Of a DNA stretch of 26,488 nt, positions 5,017-20,498 are shown in pieces; the first letter of the stretch is position 1, and every line of letters starts with the position of its first letter. The stretch lies in IMG/VR virus record IMGVR_UViG_3300027901_000225, positions 1 to 26,488 of that record; one strand, given 5' to 3'. The DNA comes from a virus. A program made the translations under genes and the position numbers. The notes below the pieces were generated by a model. That model ran no database searches, was not told where the DNA came from, and saw nothing but the letters and a program-made list of their open reading frames with translations.

Positions 5017-5319
5017 ATGCACGGAGGCAAGCTGAAGATCATGGGCTATACCTACAAGGTCAATCTTGTAGAGGAAGCCAGCGAAATGCGAGCGTCGGGG
5101 CACTTGCATACCGGAAAGCAGGAAATTCGTGTCGCCTTGGATCAATGCGATGAGGGGCGTATCTCGACACTGATCCATGAGGTCATTCACGCCATTCTCT
5201 GGCATCTTCAGGTCGAGCTACCAGAAGAAGACTTGATGCGACTAGAGACTGGACTCTTTGCCTTTCTGAAAGATAATGGGATCGACATATCCAAACTGGA
5301 GTCAATCGTATGCAAGTAG
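5017..5319 (+). CDS. Small HExxH metallopeptidase-like protein
   Basis: This 100-residue protein has the zinc-binding helix H54-E-V-I-H58 in the context STLIHEVIHAILWH, preceded by two beta-rich segments (KIMGYTYKVN and EIRVALDQ) and followed by an acidic helix. This is the layout of the minimal ImmA/IrrE- or SprT-like phage metallopeptidases. Such proteins can cleave host regulators, but small phage versions often have no proven substrate. AAGGAGG at 5004-5010 fixes the start. The gene overlaps the methyltransferase start by ten bases. A third zinc ligand is not obvious; an acidic residue in the LPEED region is a candidate. Confidence 0.8.
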   Translation: MHGGKLKIMGYTYKVNLVEEASEMRASGHLHTGKQEIRVALDQCDEGRISTLIHEVIHAILWHLQVELPEEDLMRLETGLFAFLKDNGIDISKLESIVCK

Positions 5320-6035
5320 ATCTGTATTTTGAGGACTGTTGGTTCACCATGGAGCGAATGAAGATGGACGGGGTCGAGGTCGATCTCGCCATCACGTCGC
5401 CTCCGTATCTGGTCGAGCAGGATTACGAGAAAGATGTGGAGATGGTCGAGTATCAAGATCTGCTATGGTCTACCTATTGGAACCTAGCGTTGGTCCTCAA
5501 ACCCGGAGGATACTTTGTCATCAATTTTGGCGATCAAGCGAGAGGCAAACGCTTCCGTGAGACAGAGACGCATACCACCATTCCCATGAGTGTGACGCAC
5601 TGGGACTGCGGCACTGGCGTCGGCCTAGAACTTCAAGCAACTAGAGTGTGGCGAAAGAAGTTCGCCAGAATGGGGATTCCCTTTGTATGTAATCACTATC
5701 CAAGACCAGTCTTTGATTACGAGCATATCTGGACATGGCGCAAGCCGGACGGAGTCGGCAAGGAAATCGTTAGGGATCGCAAACTTTCTCAAAGGGGCGT
5801 TCTTGAATTTGAGGATGACCACCCGCTCAAGCGGTTCCCTGCGGCCTTTCCTCTCGGGCTACCGAAGTGGGCAATTCAAGTATATTCCGATATCGGAAAC
5901 CTCGTATACGATCCTTTTATGGGATCTGGGACCTCTGGACTGGCTGCAATCAGCCTGGACCGTCGGTTTATAGGCTCCGAGATTGACGAAAATCTGCGAG
6001 ACACCGTCGAGAATTTGCTTGGGTTGAGATCTTGA
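5310..6035 (+). CDS. Orphan DNA methyltransferase (N4-cytosine/N6-adenine, beta class)
   Basis: The 241-residue enzyme has catalytic motif IV T29-S-P-P-Y33 near the N-terminus and the AdoMet-binding motif I D201-P-F-M-G-S-G-T208 near the C-terminus. The IV-then-I order defines the beta class. TSPPY, as opposed to DPPY, is more typical of N4-cytosine enzymes, but N6-adenine cannot be excluded. YPRPVFDYEHIWTWRKP fits the conserved segment between these motifs. No restriction enzyme lies nearby, so it likely protects the phage genome from host restriction or marks DNA for packaging or regulation. It starts inside the metallopeptidase gene (ATG 5310) and its TGA overlaps the -35 box of the head promoter. 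Confidence 0.9.
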   Translation: MQVDLYFEDCWFTMERMKMDGVEVDLAITSPPYLVEQDYEKDVEMVEYQDLLWSTYWNLALVLKPGGYFVINFGDQARGKRFRETETHTTIPMSVTHWDCGTGVGLELQATRVWRKKFARMGIPFVCNHYPRPVFDYEHIWTWRKPDGVGKEIVRDRKLSQRGVLEFEDDHPLKRFPAAFPLGLPKWAIQVYSDIGNLVYDPFMGSGTSGLAAISLDRRFIGSEIDENLRDTVENLLGLRS

Positions 6036-11967: not shown

Positions 11968-12497
11968 GTGGCATCCACGACGCCGTAATGATCCGCACCC
12001 AAGCAATGTTGCAAGCAGCGCTGATTGACGATATCGACGAAGACGATCCAGCGCGCGCAGGTGTGGTCAGGATCGGTCCACTCCAAGGGGAACCCGAGCC
12101 AGACACCGCTCGTATATCGGTCTGTATCTACGAGAATGATCCCGAAGATATGGAAGGTGGCGAGTGGCTGGATCGAATCTCCGAAGTGGAATGCGGTGGA
12201 GCCGCAACATTCCAGCGACGCTTCACTATCATCAGTCGAGGTCTCTTTGTCAATACAAAAGAGAACCTCACCAATGCCCGAGCATACATGTCCACGCTCA
12301 AAGAGCGCATCGAAATCGCAATTCTGAAGGAACAGTATATCGGGATAGTAGCAGGGAACGAGTATGTTGCTCGGGGGCCTCTGGCCATGGGCATCACCTC
12401 GGTCTTACGTCAGGGTGGTGGTCCGCCCGATTCGTATGACATCTTCCTAAAGATCCGTTTCGAAATTCTCACTACACGAACAGGGGTGTTTACATGA
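11964..12497 (+). CDS. Tail completion/terminator-like protein
   Basis: This 177-residue protein lies between the connector and the tail tube gene, the usual place of head-closure and tail-terminator proteins. It has an N-terminal helix (HDAVMIRTQAMLQAAL), a beta-rich middle (DTARISVCIYEND, TFQRRFTIISRGLF) and an amphipathic helix (LTNARAYMSTLKERIEIAIL), an alpha/beta layout seen in gpU-like terminators. It would cap the tail tube so that it can join the head. Start and stop both overlap neighbours (ATGA at each end), so it is translated in a coupled set with 11296 and 12494. No catalytic motif is present. Confidence 0.65.
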   Translation: MSGIHDAVMIRTQAMLQAALIDDIDEDDPARAGVVRIGPLQGEPEPDTARISVCIYENDPEDMEGGEWLDRISEVECGGAATFQRRFTIISRGLFVNTKENLTNARAYMSTLKERIEIAILKEQYIGIVAGNEYVARGPLAMGITSVLRQGGGPPDSYDIFLKIRFEILTTRTGVFT

Positions 12498-13840
12498 CAG
12501 CAGCAGAAAAGTCCTTTATTGGACTAGCCAAACAGGACGAAAAAGGTACGCCAAACACAACTGACGCAGAGTTCAACTACCTTCTCTTCCGTGCCGGTGG
12601 TGTTGCTCCTCAAAACATCGTGCTTCCGCTTGATGCGGAGGTCGGTGGCGGGGCGATGCTTCGCGACATGGTGAAGGTGGGCGTCACATCTGGCGGAGCT
12701 TTGGACATCATCCCAAGACCGGATACCCTGGGACATTTCCTCTTGGGCGCAATGGGTGACATTGAAACCGCGAACGAAGATGGCGAGAGCTTTAAGCTCA
12801 AGTCCGATGCCATCATGGCGGACGTGTACTTGCAATCGATCCCACAAACTGGCTATGATATCGGTATTTCCAGTCCTCCAACTACCCGAACCTTGATTGT
12901 CAAGGGCACTGAGGGCGGTGAAGGTCCTTTGGCGGGAACTGTCACAGTCTACGGTACCGATGCACTCGATGCTCCATTAGAGGAGGATTTCATCCTCGAT
13001 GGTGATGAGTACATCGTTGGCGAAGAAGAGTTCAAGACAGTCACCGAAGTAGATCTTCCTGTCCGAGTAGACCCGGGCGATATGGTTCGAGTGGGTTGGG
13101 ACGATCCTGCTTACCGACACCTCTTCAAACTTCCGACTGATCAGTTCGATGCTCCGTATTACACGGTGCGTTCTGCGCCTGGTCAGTTGTGGGGCGAGCA
13201 GTTCCAGGACTGCCGCGTAGCGGGCCTAGCAATCACGTTTGCTGGCGCACGCTTTGTTGAAGGTGCTGTAACCTTCATGGGTGGGCTTCCCACTCCAGTC
13301 TCCATCGCAACCTGGGATGCTCTCACCTATCTAGACGAAGGTCCACAGTTCTTAGCTCCGACCTCGCTGGGTATTGAACTGCCTCCAGCAACCGGCCTGA
13401 AAGTCCTATCAGGTTCTGTAGCTTGGGGCTTGGCGATCCCGCTCGATGAGCAGTGGGTTGTCGGTTCATACTCTCCCGATGATTTCGACATCAATCAACG
13501 CTCCATGGTCATTACGATGGCTGTCAAGCTAACGAGTGACACACTCTACAAGAAGTTGATGTACGATGGCGTCGGCGCGGTCTCTGAATGGACAGCAGAA
13601 ATCTACCGGGAAGGTCAAATGCAACTTTCCCTGCGAAGCCCAATCGAAGCATCTACGGGTAACCCGTATGAGCTTACAATCCGTGCGCACGATACAGAGG
13701 ACAACATCGTCTGGTCGGCAGCACCGATTGGATTGCGAGCAGGGCGACAGATCGTGATGGCGGTCACCGGCGTGGTACTCAACACGAGTGCCGGAAATCC
13801 TATCGAAGTCGAACTGGTCAACACCATTCCGGCGTACTAA
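12494..13840 (+). CDS. Tail tube protein with an added beta domain
   Basis: The 448-residue product begins SFIGLAKQDEKGTPNT, matching the start of many siphovirus tail tube proteins (a G.GKE..YGTP-like pattern). It continues with a beta-rich core: LPLDAEVGGGAMLRDMVKVG, GALDIIPRPDTLGHFLLGAMG, and C-terminal strands in which SMVITMAVKL and QMQLSLRSPI alternate. Between about residues 130 and 205 an added module (TLIVKGTEGGEGPLAG, FKTVTEVDLPVRVDPGD) probably projects from the tube. At 448 residues it is larger than a bare tube protein of roughly 150-250. No sheath gene is found next to it, which supports a non-contractile tail. The ATG overlaps the previous stop. Confidence 0.8.
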   Translation: MTAAEKSFIGLAKQDEKGTPNTTDAEFNYLLFRAGGVAPQNIVLPLDAEVGGGAMLRDMVKVGVTSGGALDIIPRPDTLGHFLLGAMGDIETANEDGESFKLKSDAIMADVYLQSIPQTGYDIGISSPPTTRTLIVKGTEGGEGPLAGTVTVYGTDALDAPLEEDFILDGDEYIVGEEEFKTVTEVDLPVRVDPGDMVRVGWDDPAYRHLFKLPTDQFDAPYYTVRSAPGQLWGEQFQDCRVAGLAITFAGARFVEGAVTFMGGLPTPVSIATWDALTYLDEGPQFLAPTSLGIELPPATGLKVLSGSVAWGLAIPLDEQWVVGSYSPDDFDINQRSMVITMAVKLTSDTLYKKLMYDGVGAVSEWTAEIYREGQMQLSLRSPIEASTGNPYELTIRAHDTEDNIVWSAAPIGLRAGRQIVMAVTGVVLNTSAGNPIEVELVNTIPAY

Positions 13841-13875: not shown

Positions 13876-13898
13876 TCATAACACTCTGGAGGCTTCAA

Positions 13899-14345
13899 AT
13901 GAACTTCGGCAAATATGCAGTTTTGCAACCCATCACCTACAACTTCAAGCAGGAACCGGAGTTGTGGTGGAAATTCAAGCCACCTACGTCTGGCGACGAG
14001 TTGACAATGGCTCGTTTTCTCAATCGGGGGCGATTGACGTTAGGCGAGGAAGGTCCTTCGCGTGAAGTTCCTCCCTCTTGGATCGAAGTTGCACACAAGG
14101 AAATTTCCATTATCTTCGCCGGTACAAACATTACCGACGACAAAGATCAACCCATTTTAGCAGACAACGCATCCCCCGAACAGGTGGAAACAATGCTACG
14201 GCTGATGCCGCATGCGATGGTCATGGAAATCTGGGATGCTATCGCTCGACACGTTCCTGGCTGGGGCAATCCAATGCGCCCGCCGGATGAGGACGAAGTC
14301 CCAAACTCGGAGAGCCGGGAGACCGAAAGCGAGATCTCCTTATAA
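13899..14345 (+). CDS. Tail assembly chaperone, unshifted (gpG-like) form
   Basis: The 148-residue product lies between tail tube and tape measure, where siphoviruses encode the chaperone that coats the tape measure during tail assembly. It has a compact N-terminal part with WWKFKPPTSGDELTMARFL, a helical core (PEQVETMLRLMPHAMVMEIWDAI) and an acidic, Ser/Glu-rich tail ending ESEISL. The ATG at 13899 follows CTGGAGG and is preferred over an upstream in-frame start at 13788, which lies inside the tail tube gene. Its last part overlaps a second open frame used for the longer product. Confidence 0.85.
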   Translation: MNFGKYAVLQPITYNFKQEPELWWKFKPPTSGDELTMARFLNRGRLTLGEEGPSREVPPSWIEVAHKEISIIFAGTNITDDKDQPILADNASPEQVETMLRLMPHAMVMEIWDAIARHVPGWGNPMRPPDEDEVPNSESRETESEISL

Positions 14346-14596
14346 CGCTCGAAAACTATGTAAAAGACTACATAGTTTCTGGGGATGATAGCGACCCGCT
14401 GCTCTCGGCACACATCAGTCTGGTGCTACAATCTAAGAATACCGGTGTAGATGTCTTCCCCTCTACGATGGGGGTACTTGATCGACCCATGTTTTTTGAA
14501 CGGTACTTTCGCCACTGGGTAGATGAGGCATACGAAGAACTAGAAGGTTTCTCCTCCCAGCATCAATCTATTGTAAAGAAAGTCACGCAGGCGTGA
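13899..14596 (+). CDS. Tail assembly chaperone, -1 frameshift (gpGT-like) form
   Basis: A second frame, one base back, is open from 14291 to the TGA at 14594-14596 and has no start codon with a good ribosome site. Within the overlap the zero frame reads C_CCA_AAC at 14300-14306 (codons CCA 14301, AAC 14304), which fits the X_XXY_YYZ rule for tandem -1 slippage. The product would be 136 residues of the short form followed by 96 residues starting LGEPGDRKRDLLITLENY and ending KKVTQA, 232 in all. This is the same design as lambda gpG/gpGT, where a minor longer form bridges the tape measure and the tube protein. The site, the frame and the position between tube and tape measure all agree. Confidence 0.85.
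14353..14378 (+). other. Perfect nine-pair hairpin in the frameshift extension
   Basis: AAACTATGT (14353-14361) pairs with ACATAGTTT (14370-14378) around an eight-base loop. It begins eight bases after the zero-frame TAA and 47 bases after the slippery site, so it is too far to be a classical stimulator but could affect ribosome flow or message stability. Confidence 0.45.
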
Positions 14597-14654: not shown

Positions 14655-17600
14655 ATGTCTACTGTAAGAAAATCAGTTTTCACAGCATGGTACAATGCCA
14701 TGCGAGATATAGAAGAAGAATTGCCCGAGCAGGCATTGAATGCGTTAGTGCGTTCTGTAAAGTCTGCGCACGGTCAATTGGAGATACCCTTTACAGAGCC
14801 CTGGGCTCCTGAATGGGGTGCGGCTCCAGCGACCGCACGTCAGGCTAGCGAGCGCATTTTTGGCGTTATGAACCCTGCACTACGAGCGATTGCCGCTACC
14901 TTACCGGAGTCTACCTACGAAGATGCCTACCAAGACATGGTAGTGGGTATGTACGAGGCTATCGAGACATGGGATGAGAAGAAAGGCTCTGCCGGTGCGT
15001 ATTTAGGATCACGGGCTTTCTACCACTCATCTCAACGAGCCCGAGCAGAGCTGGATATGCCTGCACCGGTCTCTCGTCTAGGTCTCGACCTTGAGCGATT
15101 GGAAGAGCAAGCTCCGTCCGATCCTTTACAGGCTCTGAGGGGTGTCAATGTCGTAGACTTTGCTGGCGAGGTAGCACCGTACACTCGTCCTCCATGGTAT
15201 CAGGAAGTACCAGGGAAGATCCCTACGGGCGGTCTTCCGATCTTTTCATTGGGAAGAAAATTCCGCCTATCGGTGGCGGGTTTTGAAAAGCTGATTCCTT
15301 ATTTTGAACAAGGGATCGGATCTATTCAGCGCGAAGAGGTATATCCTATCAGCCTGTCTCCACAGCAGGATTATACTCCGGGGGTTCAGTTACGACAGTT
15401 CTTACAGGATGTGCGCAAGCAGACTCAAGGTTTTCTACTCGGTCGAGAACCTGCCGAGCTTCACCGAGGCAGCACTATTCAGGATTTCGAGGACTTACTG
15501 ACCTACCGTATCGACGCTGAGGCTCCATCGTGGACAGATCAGGTACGGGCGCACACCGCTAGCCACATAGGGTGGTCCTTAAGTCTGGGTCGAAGCCAGT
15601 TTCCAGAATTTGGCGGTCGGGTGGGTGGATTACAGAGTGTCCAAACACCTTATGATGCACCTCTCATTGGTCGCTACAGTTATGTTCACACTGGCCGAGA
15701 GGCACCAGCAGAGCAGAGACTACTGGGTCTACTAGGAGAGTCCACGGCAACCACACAGGCACGCATTATGTATGCTCTTGGCATCGCCCGTGGTCAACAC
15801 CCTCGTTATGTTTCCGGCGATCCTAGACAAACCAGAGAATGGCAGCGGGCCCAAGTGCAATTAGAACGCATGGGCCATCGTCAACAGTTCACCTATCTCC
15901 TCCCGGATTACGGTGGCGTGCCAGCCGAGTCTCAATATCTCGGAGGTCGTATTCCGGTATCGGAAACTCCACTTATTACTCCATCTGCTTTGGCTATAGA
16001 TCCTGCGATAACCCATCCGTCCCCGTCAGCGACACGCCTTCCATTTACCGTTCAGCCTCAAGAAGCACCTGCTGGTGCTCCTATGAAAGCACTGATGAAG
16101 CCGCCTGGATTTACCGGCGCGGCAGGGGCCTTGGTAAATGCGCTGGAGAGCTCACAAAGTCTCTTCCATGTATCAGTAGAGTCATGGATCAAAGAAAACA
16201 GTCGTGCCATGGGGCGACTAGCAGGCGACCGTCCACTCATTGACGGTAAGATGCAGTTGGCCCTGTCTGTCGTTTGGGGTCAACGATCCCCTCAAGAATT
16301 GCAACATACCATTTTACATGAACTTGGCCATGCGCCCGAGTTTCTCCAAGGGGGCAAGTACGCCACATTTATGAAGCAAGCCTTTGGCGATCCAGATATT
16401 TTAGATCGATTCGATCCCAAAGAGCGGCGTTGGTATGAAGCCATGGCTGAGTCATTTACAGCCTATTTCCAGGGCGAGGATATACCTGAAAAGCAACGTC
16501 TCGTGATTGAGGCATTGTTGGCCGAAGAGCCTGAGCTACGTAATGCCATGCTGTCTGTTGCCAATGTCGATATCAAGACATTAGAGACGATGGGTGAGCG
16601 ACCTGTTGCTGGCCCGGCGGGGCGGTCTGTCGAGATTGGCGTTGGTGATCTACCCAAGTATCTTCAAGACCCCCGCAATTTACCCGTCTGGGCCACAGAC
16701 CCAGGCTTACGCAATTGGATTCAACGAGGTATCCCTGTCGTACCTCCTGCCTTGTGGGAATCTGTCACACCTGAAGCGCGAGAGGCACTATTTGCCATGC
16801 GCGGTACTGGCAACGCTGAGGCACTGGCAGGAGTGATTGAGGGATACGGCCTCAAAGCGAGCTACGAAGAAGCCGCAGTAGGTGCTGGTGTACCTGGCGC
16901 ATTTCAGGATTGGAATAATGAATCTCTAAAGGCGCAGATTAAGACACGTGAAGCACAGGCGGCTAAGGCAGCGGACTCCACTCGCCAGACCGTGGATGGA
17001 GCCAGAACGGTTGCCACAGACCCGGCCAAAGCGACGGCATCAACTTATGCAGGATCTCAGGAGGGTCAATACGGTAGTGCATTCCGACGACCCGCAGGAG
17101 CTCCTCCGCCGCCAACGGAAGGTCCACCTCCCGTTGAGCCTGGAACAACTTTACCGGACGTAGATACCACTCGCCCTACTCGTTTACCTGCGGGCGGTGC
17201 AGTTTCGCTCGAACATTGGCAAGGAGCCATTGCTCATGGTCGGGAAGTTCTTGCGGCCACACGACCTTCGTCGGGTGGCGTTGCGGGCTATCCTGCGGGC
17301 GATGTTTACACCGACGCTCCGGGTGAAAAAATACTTATGAAGCCGGAGCACATAGCACGAGCGCGCGGGCTAGCGACACAGGCTTTTGAATCAGTAGCGG
17401 GTACGCCGGTACCGCGTGGTACTGCCGGTAGCGCAGTCGGTACTCATGCTGACCGAGCAAAACAGGCATTTGACAATCTAACCAAGAAGTTCGTGGATAC
17501 GTATGTCAAAGAGATGGAGGACAGCGGTCAAAAACTGACACCTGAAATGCAGGAAGACGTTCGGCATCAAGCTCGTAGAATTGTGGGCACAGGCAGAGAT

Positions 17601-20498
17601 TTCTTGTATCGAGTTGAGCGAGCCATGTCTGATAAACTTGGTGGCTCACGTGCTGGTTCCCGATGGAAGGCAGAGAGAATTGGTGCAGCCGAGCTTGAGC
17701 AAATGTCCCAAGTGCCGGGTTTTGAGGCATTGCAGACACAGATCGCACAAGCTGGCAACGTAGGAACTCTTGCCGCAGGGGGCGGTTTTATTGAAGGAAC
17801 AGGCAACTTGGCCGGAATGGACTTCCGCGTACCACCTACTCCTCCAGGAGGAAGGCCATTTCAACGCGATGCCGCAGGTGGTCAACAAGGCGGTAACCTC
17901 TGGCGACGCATGGGCGCAGCCGGTAGTGCGTTATATGGTATGTATATCGCTCGCCGATTCTGGGGCTATACGGGTGATCCGGCCATACAGGCCATGCAAG
18001 AGTATCAGCAGTTATCCTATCAGTGGGGGCCTACCACTGGAGCTGGCATGAGACCAGAGGGTCAAGCGGTACAGCAGCGAGCTCTTGCACAGTATTACGA
18101 AGGTCTGGGGGCATGGCAGCAGTTTGGTGGGATTGCAGGTGCGGGACGAGGGTTTATGGCTACACCCGCTGGTGGTCGCCTAACTGCCACGGCTGAAGTT
18201 GCTGGCGGTCTGGGTATCGTAGCACAGGTTCTGGGTGGTAGCCTCGGGCCTGAGATGACTCAGTTTTTGACCATGGGTGCCACGAAGGGTATTCCTGCTA
18301 TTGGCATGGCAGGCACCTATGCTGCCGCAGGCTTACTGGCTTTCGCTGGTATCAACGAGGGTCTCAACGCGGTTCTGGGCCAAAACATGGGTATGGCGGA
18401 TCGTGTTGGGTCGTCCTTTCAAGCGCTTGGAAGATTTATATACTCCGGTATGTCTCCAGAACAACAGCAGGCAATGTTCACACAAGGTGCCCCAGGCGCG
18501 GAATGGCTCACTAAGGATTTCGAGGCTGAGGCTCAAGCGGAAGGTCTGACGGGTCTGACGAAGCTCTCCGATAAGACCGGACTGGCTATAGATGACCCTC
18601 GGCTAAGCGAGGCCGCAATGGTTGCCATGCGGATCACTGGCCAGGCCAGCGATCATCCCACGACACTACGTGTGGCCAAGATGATCGCATCGCGTATGAC
18701 AGAGGAGGGTGCTTCGGCAAGTAGTATCGGCACTGGTATTCTCAGTTACATGTCCACCAAGGGCGCACGAGTAGGTGATATCAATGCCGCTCGCTATGCG
18801 TGGGACTATACAAAACTCTCACCGGAAGCGCGGGCTGAAGTTGATGAGACGAGTGCTCGCCACCAGCAAGTAATGAGCATGTTCCGTGCGATTTGGCCCA
18901 ATATGGACTATGGTGATCTAAGTGCATTTGCTGGCAGGATGCCCTCGCTAGGTTTTGCCCAGCGACAGTATGGATACGCAGCGCGTATGGAAACCATGGG
19001 CGTTAGCGAGACTGTGGGGCAGGGCTGGAGTAGCGAGTTGATGACTATGGCTCCGGCTAGATCTGTTTCTATTATGGCAGGAGCCGAGACTATCGGACAG
19101 TATCTAACCCCAGCGCAATTTGGTGCGCATACGCCTGCGATACGAGATTTTCTGCAAGATATGACTATGGCGCAACGTACAATCTGGCAGGGCATGGCCG
19201 AGGGTGATCCGGCTGCGTGGAGCTTGCAGTACCGTGCTACAGGTGGCGCTGCGGGCATTCCATTCATGGATGCAATGGGACAGCCTATTTATGAAACGAG
19301 CATGGCTGGCATGGGCACTATGGCCCAGCGAGCAGCAGGCCAATTCGGTATCAATCCAATGTTGGCGGGTAGAATTACCCAAGCGGCTCAGGGTGGACCT
19401 GTTACGGGTTATCATGTTGCACAAGCGTTAGGGCTGTCTCAACAAGGACAAGAATACTTCCAACAGAATCCACAGGCTGGAATGCAGGATTATCGCTGGG
19501 CAATGCAACAGCGAATGGGCCAACTCCAGATGGGCTCTATAGGTCTACAATACCAAGGTATTCTCGCCCAACAGCAGTACCTCTGGGGCGGTGGGCAATG
19601 GACGGGTACTCCTGCTCCTGGTTCTATGTGGGGCATGGAAGATGTCATGCGGGGTATGCAGAACCAGGCTCAGATGGCCGGGTTTGGCTCCACCTTACAG
19701 CGTATGGACACTGGGGCTATGTTCGCTCGCCAGCAGGAAGCTATGGGCTGGGAGCGGATGCAGCTACAGCAGCAGTGGCAAGGCTACACGATGGGCTTCC
19801 AGCGTCAAGGTCAGCTTCAGCGGCGTGGCTGGGCTCGGGAGGACTGGCAGTATCAAGACACGATGCGCTCTCTCCAATTTGGCTGGGGTATGGAAGACCT
19901 CGACGAAGCCATTCGGATGTCTTCTGGTAGACAACGCCGGACGTTGGTGAAACAGCGTGAGCGAATGACGCTGGGCCAGAACCTTGAGGAAACTCAAATC
20001 GAGCGTCAAAGAGCGCGTCAAGAAGAGATGTGGGCTCGTGAAGACGAGATGTACCAGAAACAGATGGAATACATTGCTCACATCACCGAGATGGACGAAG
20101 ACCAGTTCAAGATGAACGTAGAGCAGCGAGAAGAGCTCTACGAGATGGACAGGGAAGAACTCAAGCGTCGGCTTGAGGAGTACAAGGAGCAGTATGCTCT
20201 TCAAACCCAGATCATCGATAAGCAACGCCAGCATCAGGCTGATGAACTTGAACGTCAGAAGGCCATGCTGGGCATTCAAATGGAAATTGCCCAGATACAG
20301 AAAGAACTGGCCGAGGACGAAAAGAAAGTCAAGGACAGTTGGAGGAAGGACATGGCCGAGTTCAAAGATATGGGCACTCTCCATCGTGCCGAGATGGTGG
20401 CGAAGGCTATTAGCAGTATGGCCAAGACCCTCAATGGCGTAAACATCTTCAAGATCCAGCAGCTCGAAGAGATGTTGCTGGCCGCGGACTTTGACTAA
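14655..20498 (+). CDS. Tape measure protein with sigma-like and metallopeptidase-like domains
   Basis: At 1947 residues this is by far the longest gene, in the standard place after the chaperone. The C-terminal third (about 1620-1947) is Gln/Met/Trp-rich and then strongly coiled-coil. Hydrophobic segments near 1087-1100 and 1180-1241 fit the membrane-inserting part of tape measures. Two additions stand out. Residues about 60-142 (EDAYQDMVVGMYEAIETWDEKKGS and the MPAPVSRL end) resemble sigma70 region 2. Residues H555-E-L-G-H559 with E595 or E599 (YEAMAES) form a gluzincin-like zinc site. A proline-rich linker follows at about 815-840. If tape length scales at the known 1.5 angstroms per residue, the tail could reach about 290 nm. 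AGGA at 14643-14646 serves the ATG. Confidence 0.9.
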   Translation: MSTVRKSVFTAWYNAMRDIEEELPEQALNALVRSVKSAHGQLEIPFTEPWAPEWGAAPATARQASERIFGVMNPALRAIAATLPESTYEDAYQDMVVGMYEAIETWDEKKGSAGAYLGSRAFYHSSQRARAELDMPAPVSRLGLDLERLEEQAPSDPLQALRGVNVVDFAGEVAPYTRPPWYQEVPGKIPTGGLPIFSLGRKFRLSVAGFEKLIPYFEQGIGSIQREEVYPISLSPQQDYTPGVQLRQFLQDVRKQTQGFLLGREPAELHRGSTIQDFEDLLTYRIDAEAPSWTDQVRAHTASHIGWSLSLGRSQFPEFGGRVGGLQSVQTPYDAPLIGRYSYVHTGREAPAEQRLLGLLGESTATTQARIMYALGIARGQHPRYVSGDPRQTREWQRAQVQLERMGHRQQFTYLLPDYGGVPAESQYLGGRIPVSETPLITPSALAIDPAITHPSPSATRLPFTVQPQEAPAGAPMKALMKPPGFTGAAGALVNALESSQSLFHVSVESWIKENSRAMGRLAGDRPLIDGKMQLALSVVWGQRSPQELQHTILHELGHAPEFLQGGKYATFMKQAFGDPDILDRFDPKERRWYEAMAESFTAYFQGEDIPEKQRLVIEALLAEEPELRNAMLSVANVDIKTLETMGERPVAGPAGRSVEIGVGDLPKYLQDPRNLPVWATDPGLRNWIQRGIPVVPPALWESVTPEAREALFAMRGTGNAEALAGVIEGYGLKASYEEAAVGAGVPGAFQDWNNESLKAQIKTREAQAAKAADSTRQTVDGARTVATDPAKATASTYAGSQEGQYGSAFRRPAGAPPPPTEGPPPVEPGTTLPDVDTTRPTRLPAGGAVSLEHWQGAIAHGREVLAATRPSSGGVAGYPAGDVYTDAPGEKILMKPEHIARARGLATQAFESVAGTPVPRGTAGSAVGTHADRAKQAFDNLTKKFVDTYVKEMEDSGQKLTPEMQEDVRHQARRIVGTGRDFLYRVERAMSDKLGGSRAGSRWKAERIGAAELEQMSQVPGFEALQTQIAQAGNVGTLAAGGGFIEGTGNLAGMDFRVPPTPPGGRPFQRDAAGGQQGGNLWRRMGAAGSALYGMYIARRFWGYTGDPAIQAMQEYQQLSYQWGPTTGAGMRPEGQAVQQRALAQYYEGLGAWQQFGGIAGAGRGFMATPAGGRLTATAEVAGGLGIVAQVLGGSLGPEMTQFLTMGATKGIPAIGMAGTYAAAGLLAFAGINEGLNAVLGQNMGMADRVGSSFQALGRFIYSGMSPEQQQAMFTQGAPGAEWLTKDFEAEAQAEGLTGLTKLSDKTGLAIDDPRLSEAAMVAMRITGQASDHPTTLRVAKMIASRMTEEGASASSIGTGILSYMSTKGARVGDINAARYAWDYTKLSPEARAEVDETSARHQQVMSMFRAIWPNMDYGDLSAFAGRMPSLGFAQRQYGYAARMETMGVSETVGQGWSSELMTMAPARSVSIMAGAETIGQYLTPAQFGAHTPAIRDFLQDMTMAQRTIWQGMAEGDPAAWSLQYRATGGAAGIPFMDAMGQPIYETSMAGMGTMAQRAAGQFGINPMLAGRITQAAQGGPVTGYHVAQALGLSQQGQEYFQQNPQAGMQDYRWAMQQRMGQLQMGSIGLQYQGILAQQQYLWGGGQWTGTPAPGSMWGMEDVMRGMQNQAQMAGFGSTLQRMDTGAMFARQQEAMGWERMQLQQQWQGYTMGFQRQGQLQRRGWAREDWQYQDTMRSLQFGWGMEDLDEAIRMSSGRQRRTLVKQRERMTLGQNLEETQIERQRARQEEMWAREDEMYQKQMEYIAHITEMDEDQFKMNVEQREELYEMDREELKRRLEEYKEQYALQTQIIDKQRQHQADELERQKAMLGIQMEIAQIQKELAEDEKKVKDSWRKDMAEFKDMGTLHRAEMVAKAISSMAKTLNGVNIFKIQQLEEMLLAADFD

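Follow-up and report, generated by a model that had tools for sequence, protein, structure and literature searches.

The gpG/gpGT -1 frameshift of phage lambda is treated in the part of a review that cites Levin 1993 and Xu 2004, 2013 (PMC5009743), and the same arrangement has been described for lambda and many other long-tailed phages (PMC5009743). Of all heptamers in Escherichia coli, C_CCA_AAG slips most efficiently (54% with the IS3 pseudoknot), and there the C_CCA_AAC class re-pairs poorly, as the move from AAC to AAA is non-cognate (PMC4066793).

We examined a 26,488-base stretch of viral DNA (IMG/VR record IMGVR_UViG_3300027901_000225), here called the window. Its head-to-tail gene order is ordinary: terminase, portal, major capsid, adaptor, tail tube, chaperone, a 1947-aa ORF, and more long ORFs. 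Two overlapping frames, a chaperone and its extension, sit between the tail tube gene and the putative tape measure gene. We are highly confident that this tail assembly chaperone is made in a short and a long form by a -1 frameshift of the lambda G/GT type on C_CCA_AAC. The features of the locus are as follows.

12494 to 13840, plus strand: tail tube protein gene, upstream of the chaperone (PF18906, E value of 2.8e-10; phrog_290, E value of 1.4e-11)
13888 to 13892, plus strand: ribosome-binding site GGAGG for the chaperone, seen in the sequence; most relatives have a GGAGG-like site ahead of the corresponding gene
13899 to 14345, plus strand: zero-frame tail assembly chaperone ORF, 148 aa, the gpG-like short product (ATG at 13899, TAA at 14343 to 14345)
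14300 to 14306, plus strand: slippery heptamer C_CCA_AAC in the zero-frame register, identified from the sequence, the relatives, and synonymous resampling
14306 to 14319, plus strand: stem CTCGG-AGAG-CCGGG, about -6 kcal/mol, present but unsupported as a stimulator
14306 to 14596, plus strand: -1 frame extension, 96 aa plus stop, gpT-like and predicted to be read after the slip, identified from the sequence and the relatives
14655 to 20498, plus strand: putative tape measure protein ORF, 1947 aa, downstream of the chaperone and named by position and length

No family match as a tape measure protein was found for the ORF at 14655 to 20498. Residues 86 to 119 of its product, near the N terminus, gave a weak match to sigma-70 region 2 (E value of 1.7e-4, below the Pfam cutoff), as did the corresponding ORF in the relative L040 (E value of 0.0029), and its translation contains a HELGH zinc-peptidase-like motif. 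Elsewhere in the window, an N6/N4 DNA methyltransferase gene (5310 to 6035; PF01555, E value of 3.8e-24) lies between the terminase and portal genes, and positions 446 to 970 encode a thioredoxin-like protein with a hydrophobic N terminus and weak Pfam matches.

The -1 frame is open from 14291 to 14596, and C_CCA_AAC is the only in-register X_XXY_YYZ heptamer within the window overlap; the original prediction had placed both the open frame and the heptamer correctly to the base. The zero-frame codons at the site, GTC CCA AAC, are in the tandem-slip register, and CCA AAC would re-pair as CCC AAA upon a one-base slip. Tandem slippage would join 136 residues of the chaperone to the 96 of the extension, so that the predicted products have 148 and 232 residues, as had been proposed. 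The junction falls at residue 136, where the predicted junction peptide of the fusion is ...PDEDEVPNLGEPGDR and the predicted tryptic peptide across it is HVPGWGNPMRPPDEDEVPNLGEPGDR. When synonymous codons in the window overlap were resampled, an in-register heptamer arose by chance in ∼8 to 9% of cases. Thus, the case from one genome is only suggestive, and the comparative case is decisive.

The relatives were drawn from IMG/VR, plus one on a GTDB genome contig (Anaerolineae bacterium W379), and the comparison set comprised 24 distinct sequences (the window and 23 relatives). The best match to the extension was in the -1 frame in all 24 (HMM E values of about 1e-9 to 1e-38); the HMM was built from 12 of the 24, which makes the scores of those 12 partly circular but not the frame. 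An in-register X_XXY_YYZ heptamer was found inside the overlap in 22 of the 24 sequences, against 3.9 expected when synonymous codons were resampled (P = 1.9e-17, a value that ignores, and is therefore made optimistic by, the shared ancestry of the sequences). The first 12-genome subset had given the same picture (11 of 12; P = 8e-10). The heptamers were CCCAAAC (7 sequences), CCCAAAA (7), CCCAAAAAAC with two overlapping sites (3), AAAAAAC (3), AAAAAAA (1), and CCCTTTC (1). In L039, which shares its contig with L008 and L018, the overlap consists of the heptamer alone, with the -1 frame TGA abutting CCCAAAC and the zero-frame TAA directly after it. Conservation of the heptamer, which had been put forward as a check, held across most of the set.

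Between the window and L012, the extension had a dN of 0.32 and a dS of 2.1, and dS in the zero frame was saturated. Both halves evolve as protein and are conserved despite saturated synonymous sites. Since synonymous sites are near saturation, the retention of exact bases at the slip site does not reflect recency. These results bear on whether the -1 frame and heptamer arose by chance, or whether one gene was broken by a sequencing error or recent mutation. The resampled frequency in the window alone leaves some room for such an account, but a second, nearly identical contig carries the same bases as the window, the frame relation is common to 24 distinct sequences, and both halves evolve as protein; we regard this explanation as scarcely credible.

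It is important to note that not every relative has a classical heptamer. The original prediction had named an extension kept in relatives that have lost the heptamer as the observation that would count against it, and we found this in 2 of the 24 sequences. L038 (same contig as L017; 2892 to 2945) keeps the -1 extension but has CAG AAG AAA G at the site, and L041 (2860 to 2926) keeps it with CTC CCC CGG, which includes a run of five C's. That run allows a single-tRNA slip, and a motif named "five" is listed by PRFect among the slip sites of annotated frameshifts (PMC10885494). Because L041 has the five C's at the equivalent place, we take both to be sites that have diverged and do not regard them as refuting the frameshift. 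Moreover, the CCCTTTC of L042 lies 79 nt before the stop and, with a null expectation of 0.33 for that sequence, may be a chance match. L038, L041, and L042 are the best evidence against a strict heptamer rule. The poor re-pairing of the C_CCA_AAC class in E. coli also counts against slippage at the window site.

The same comparison bears on how the extension is translated. The original prediction held that it has no credible start codon of its own, and in the window there is no ATG, GTG, or TTG in the -1 frame before GTG 14423, ∼40 codons into the extension and inside conserved sequence; only the rare start ATA lies earlier, at 14342. If the extension were instead a separate gene with its own or coupled initiation, ribosomes could start at this ATA, which overlaps the chaperone stop codon (as ATAA), or reinitiate after that stop, and some relatives do have an ATG soon past it (L038 and L015 at +8, L028 at +14, L039 at +23). 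However, many members, including the window, have no ATG, GTG, or TTG near the stop, and independent initiation would leave the in-register heptamer of 22 of the 24 sequences unexplained, which makes a separate gene very unlikely.

Slippage by RNA polymerase on a homopolymer, yielding mRNAs of altered length from which the fusion would be made by ordinary decoding, could be imagined for the A run at the L048 site and for the six A's in the CCCAAAAAAC members. Most members, including the window, have only CCC AAA and no long homopolymer, though, and what is conserved is the codon register, on which slippage by RNA polymerase would not depend; this explanation seems to us more improbable still than a separate gene. 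Ribosomal frameshifting of the gpG/gpGT type, as the original prediction proposed, agrees with the -1 position of the extension throughout the set, with the heptamers, and with the fold and gene order.

The stem that the original prediction described at 14306 to 14319 is present in the letters of the window, but we found no support for it as a stimulator. It starts at the last base of the heptamer and thus within the slippery site, and the usual spacer between slippery site and stem is 5 to 9 nt (PMC5009743). It is broken in L012, the nearest divergent relative (chaperone 70% identical), and is missing from the other relatives tested, apart from a shifted version in L013. No downstream structure signal was found in the 60 nt past 21 sites (mean z of -0.60, compared with -0.47 for controls; P = 0.33). 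In our view, the conserved signal is therefore the heptamer; a stimulator, if there is one, is not a conserved stem. Several relatives have a Shine-Dalgarno-like sequence, TGGGGGCC, 7 nt ahead of the heptamer, and we considered it as an upstream stimulator; we set it aside because it encodes a conserved Trp-Gly-Pro and is indistinguishable from protein constraint.

An AlphaFold model of the chaperone, built from the alignment, was of fair quality (mean pLDDT, 81; pTM, 0.73). Its top hits in a viral Foldseek search were annotated tail assembly chaperones (E values of 1.1e-4 and 8.9e-4; probability, 1.0), and its first hit in the PDB was the HK97 tail assembly chaperone 2ob9 (E value of 0.2, not significant alone). 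The extension was predicted as three helices, and Foldseek found no significant fold match for it. Neither the chaperone nor the extension had a Pfam match above the cutoff, PHROG matches were marginal and to families of unknown function, and PDB sequence searches with the two gave no usable match. Nucleotide and tblastn searches with the chaperone, extension, and tail tube against 50,697 phage records gave no match, and no similarity was found between the chaperone and extension halves. The chaperone family itself is thus without a Pfam or PHROG model in the libraries searched here. Such genes have low sequence similarity between different phages (PMC5009743), and therefore the missing family match limits membership in a named family rather than the functional class, which is supported by fold, position, and frameshift.

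In the mechanism that we propose, a minority of ribosomes would slip back one base on C_CCA_AAC at 14300 to 14306 and read the -1 frame to 14596, producing the 232-aa fusion in addition to the 148-aa short form, which would be the abundant product. Following the analogy of lambda gpG/gpGT, the tape measure protein would be coated by the N-terminal domain that both products share, and the rare fusion would bring in tail tube protein, allowing the tail to grow around the tape. We infer by the same kind of analogy that slippage takes place in vivo, probably at a low rate.

The last base of the heptamer (Z) was C or A and never G among the heptamers of the 22 sequences, and C_CCA_AAG was absent from these 22. 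At the 11 sites whose slipping A-site codon can be Lys, that codon is AAA in every case, and AAG makes up 23 to 84% of the Lys codons in the same loci; the product of the AAA fractions over the 11 sites is about 4e-5. The genome holding L024 has tRNA-Lys(CUU), tRNA-Lys(UUU), and tRNA-Pro(UGG). A CUU tRNA would re-pair poorly on AAA, and the avoidance of Z = G could be explained if the hosts carry a dedicated tRNA-Lys(CUU); IS elements can have AAG sites even where a CUU tRNA is present (PMC4066793). The preference at Z could come from a constraint set by the tRNAs of the host or from selection that favors a low level of slippage. Our tentative reading, to which we give somewhat less than an even chance, is that this is an undescribed tail chaperone family tuned for low, stimulator-free slippage that keeps C_CCA_AAC/AAA or A_AAA_AAC/AAA and avoids Z = G.

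The contig that carries one close relative is part of an Anaerolineae (Chloroflexota) genome bin, and the host of the window virus is perhaps an uncultured bacterium of the Anaerolineae. The frameshift itself is already known from phage lambda, and this chaperone family is missing from the family libraries that we searched; the conserved tail-chaperone frameshift is thereby extended to a virus group that those libraries miss. With 22 naturally varied slip sites, one can ask which heptamers serve in slippage and what influence the tRNA set has on them. In annotation, the chaperone and its 96-aa extension should be joined, so that the extension is neither overlooked nor called a separate gene. 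The locus is of modest interest, apart from the preference at Z and a chaperone family that the libraries do not list.

Compared with lambda gpG/gpGT, the heptamer here is C_CCA_AAC and the family uses CCCAAAC, CCCAAAA, AAAAAAC, or AAAAAAA; further, neither half has detectable Pfam homology to known chaperone families. Among PDB folds, the N-terminal domain best matches the HK97 chaperone 2ob9, which is similar in length, but the match is weak (E value of 0.2; TM score of about 0.34 to 0.42; 12% identity). The chaperones of Gordonia phage Teatealatte and Bacillus phage Gemini are alike in predicted fold (Foldseek E values of 1.1e-4 and 8.9e-4), with sequence identity of 8 to 14%. Finally, the sites of E. 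coli dnaX and of IS elements (for instance, A_AAA_AAG) resemble those described here in tandem tRNA slippage on X_XXY_YYZ, whereas the present family never has Z = G and has no stem stimulator conserved across its members.
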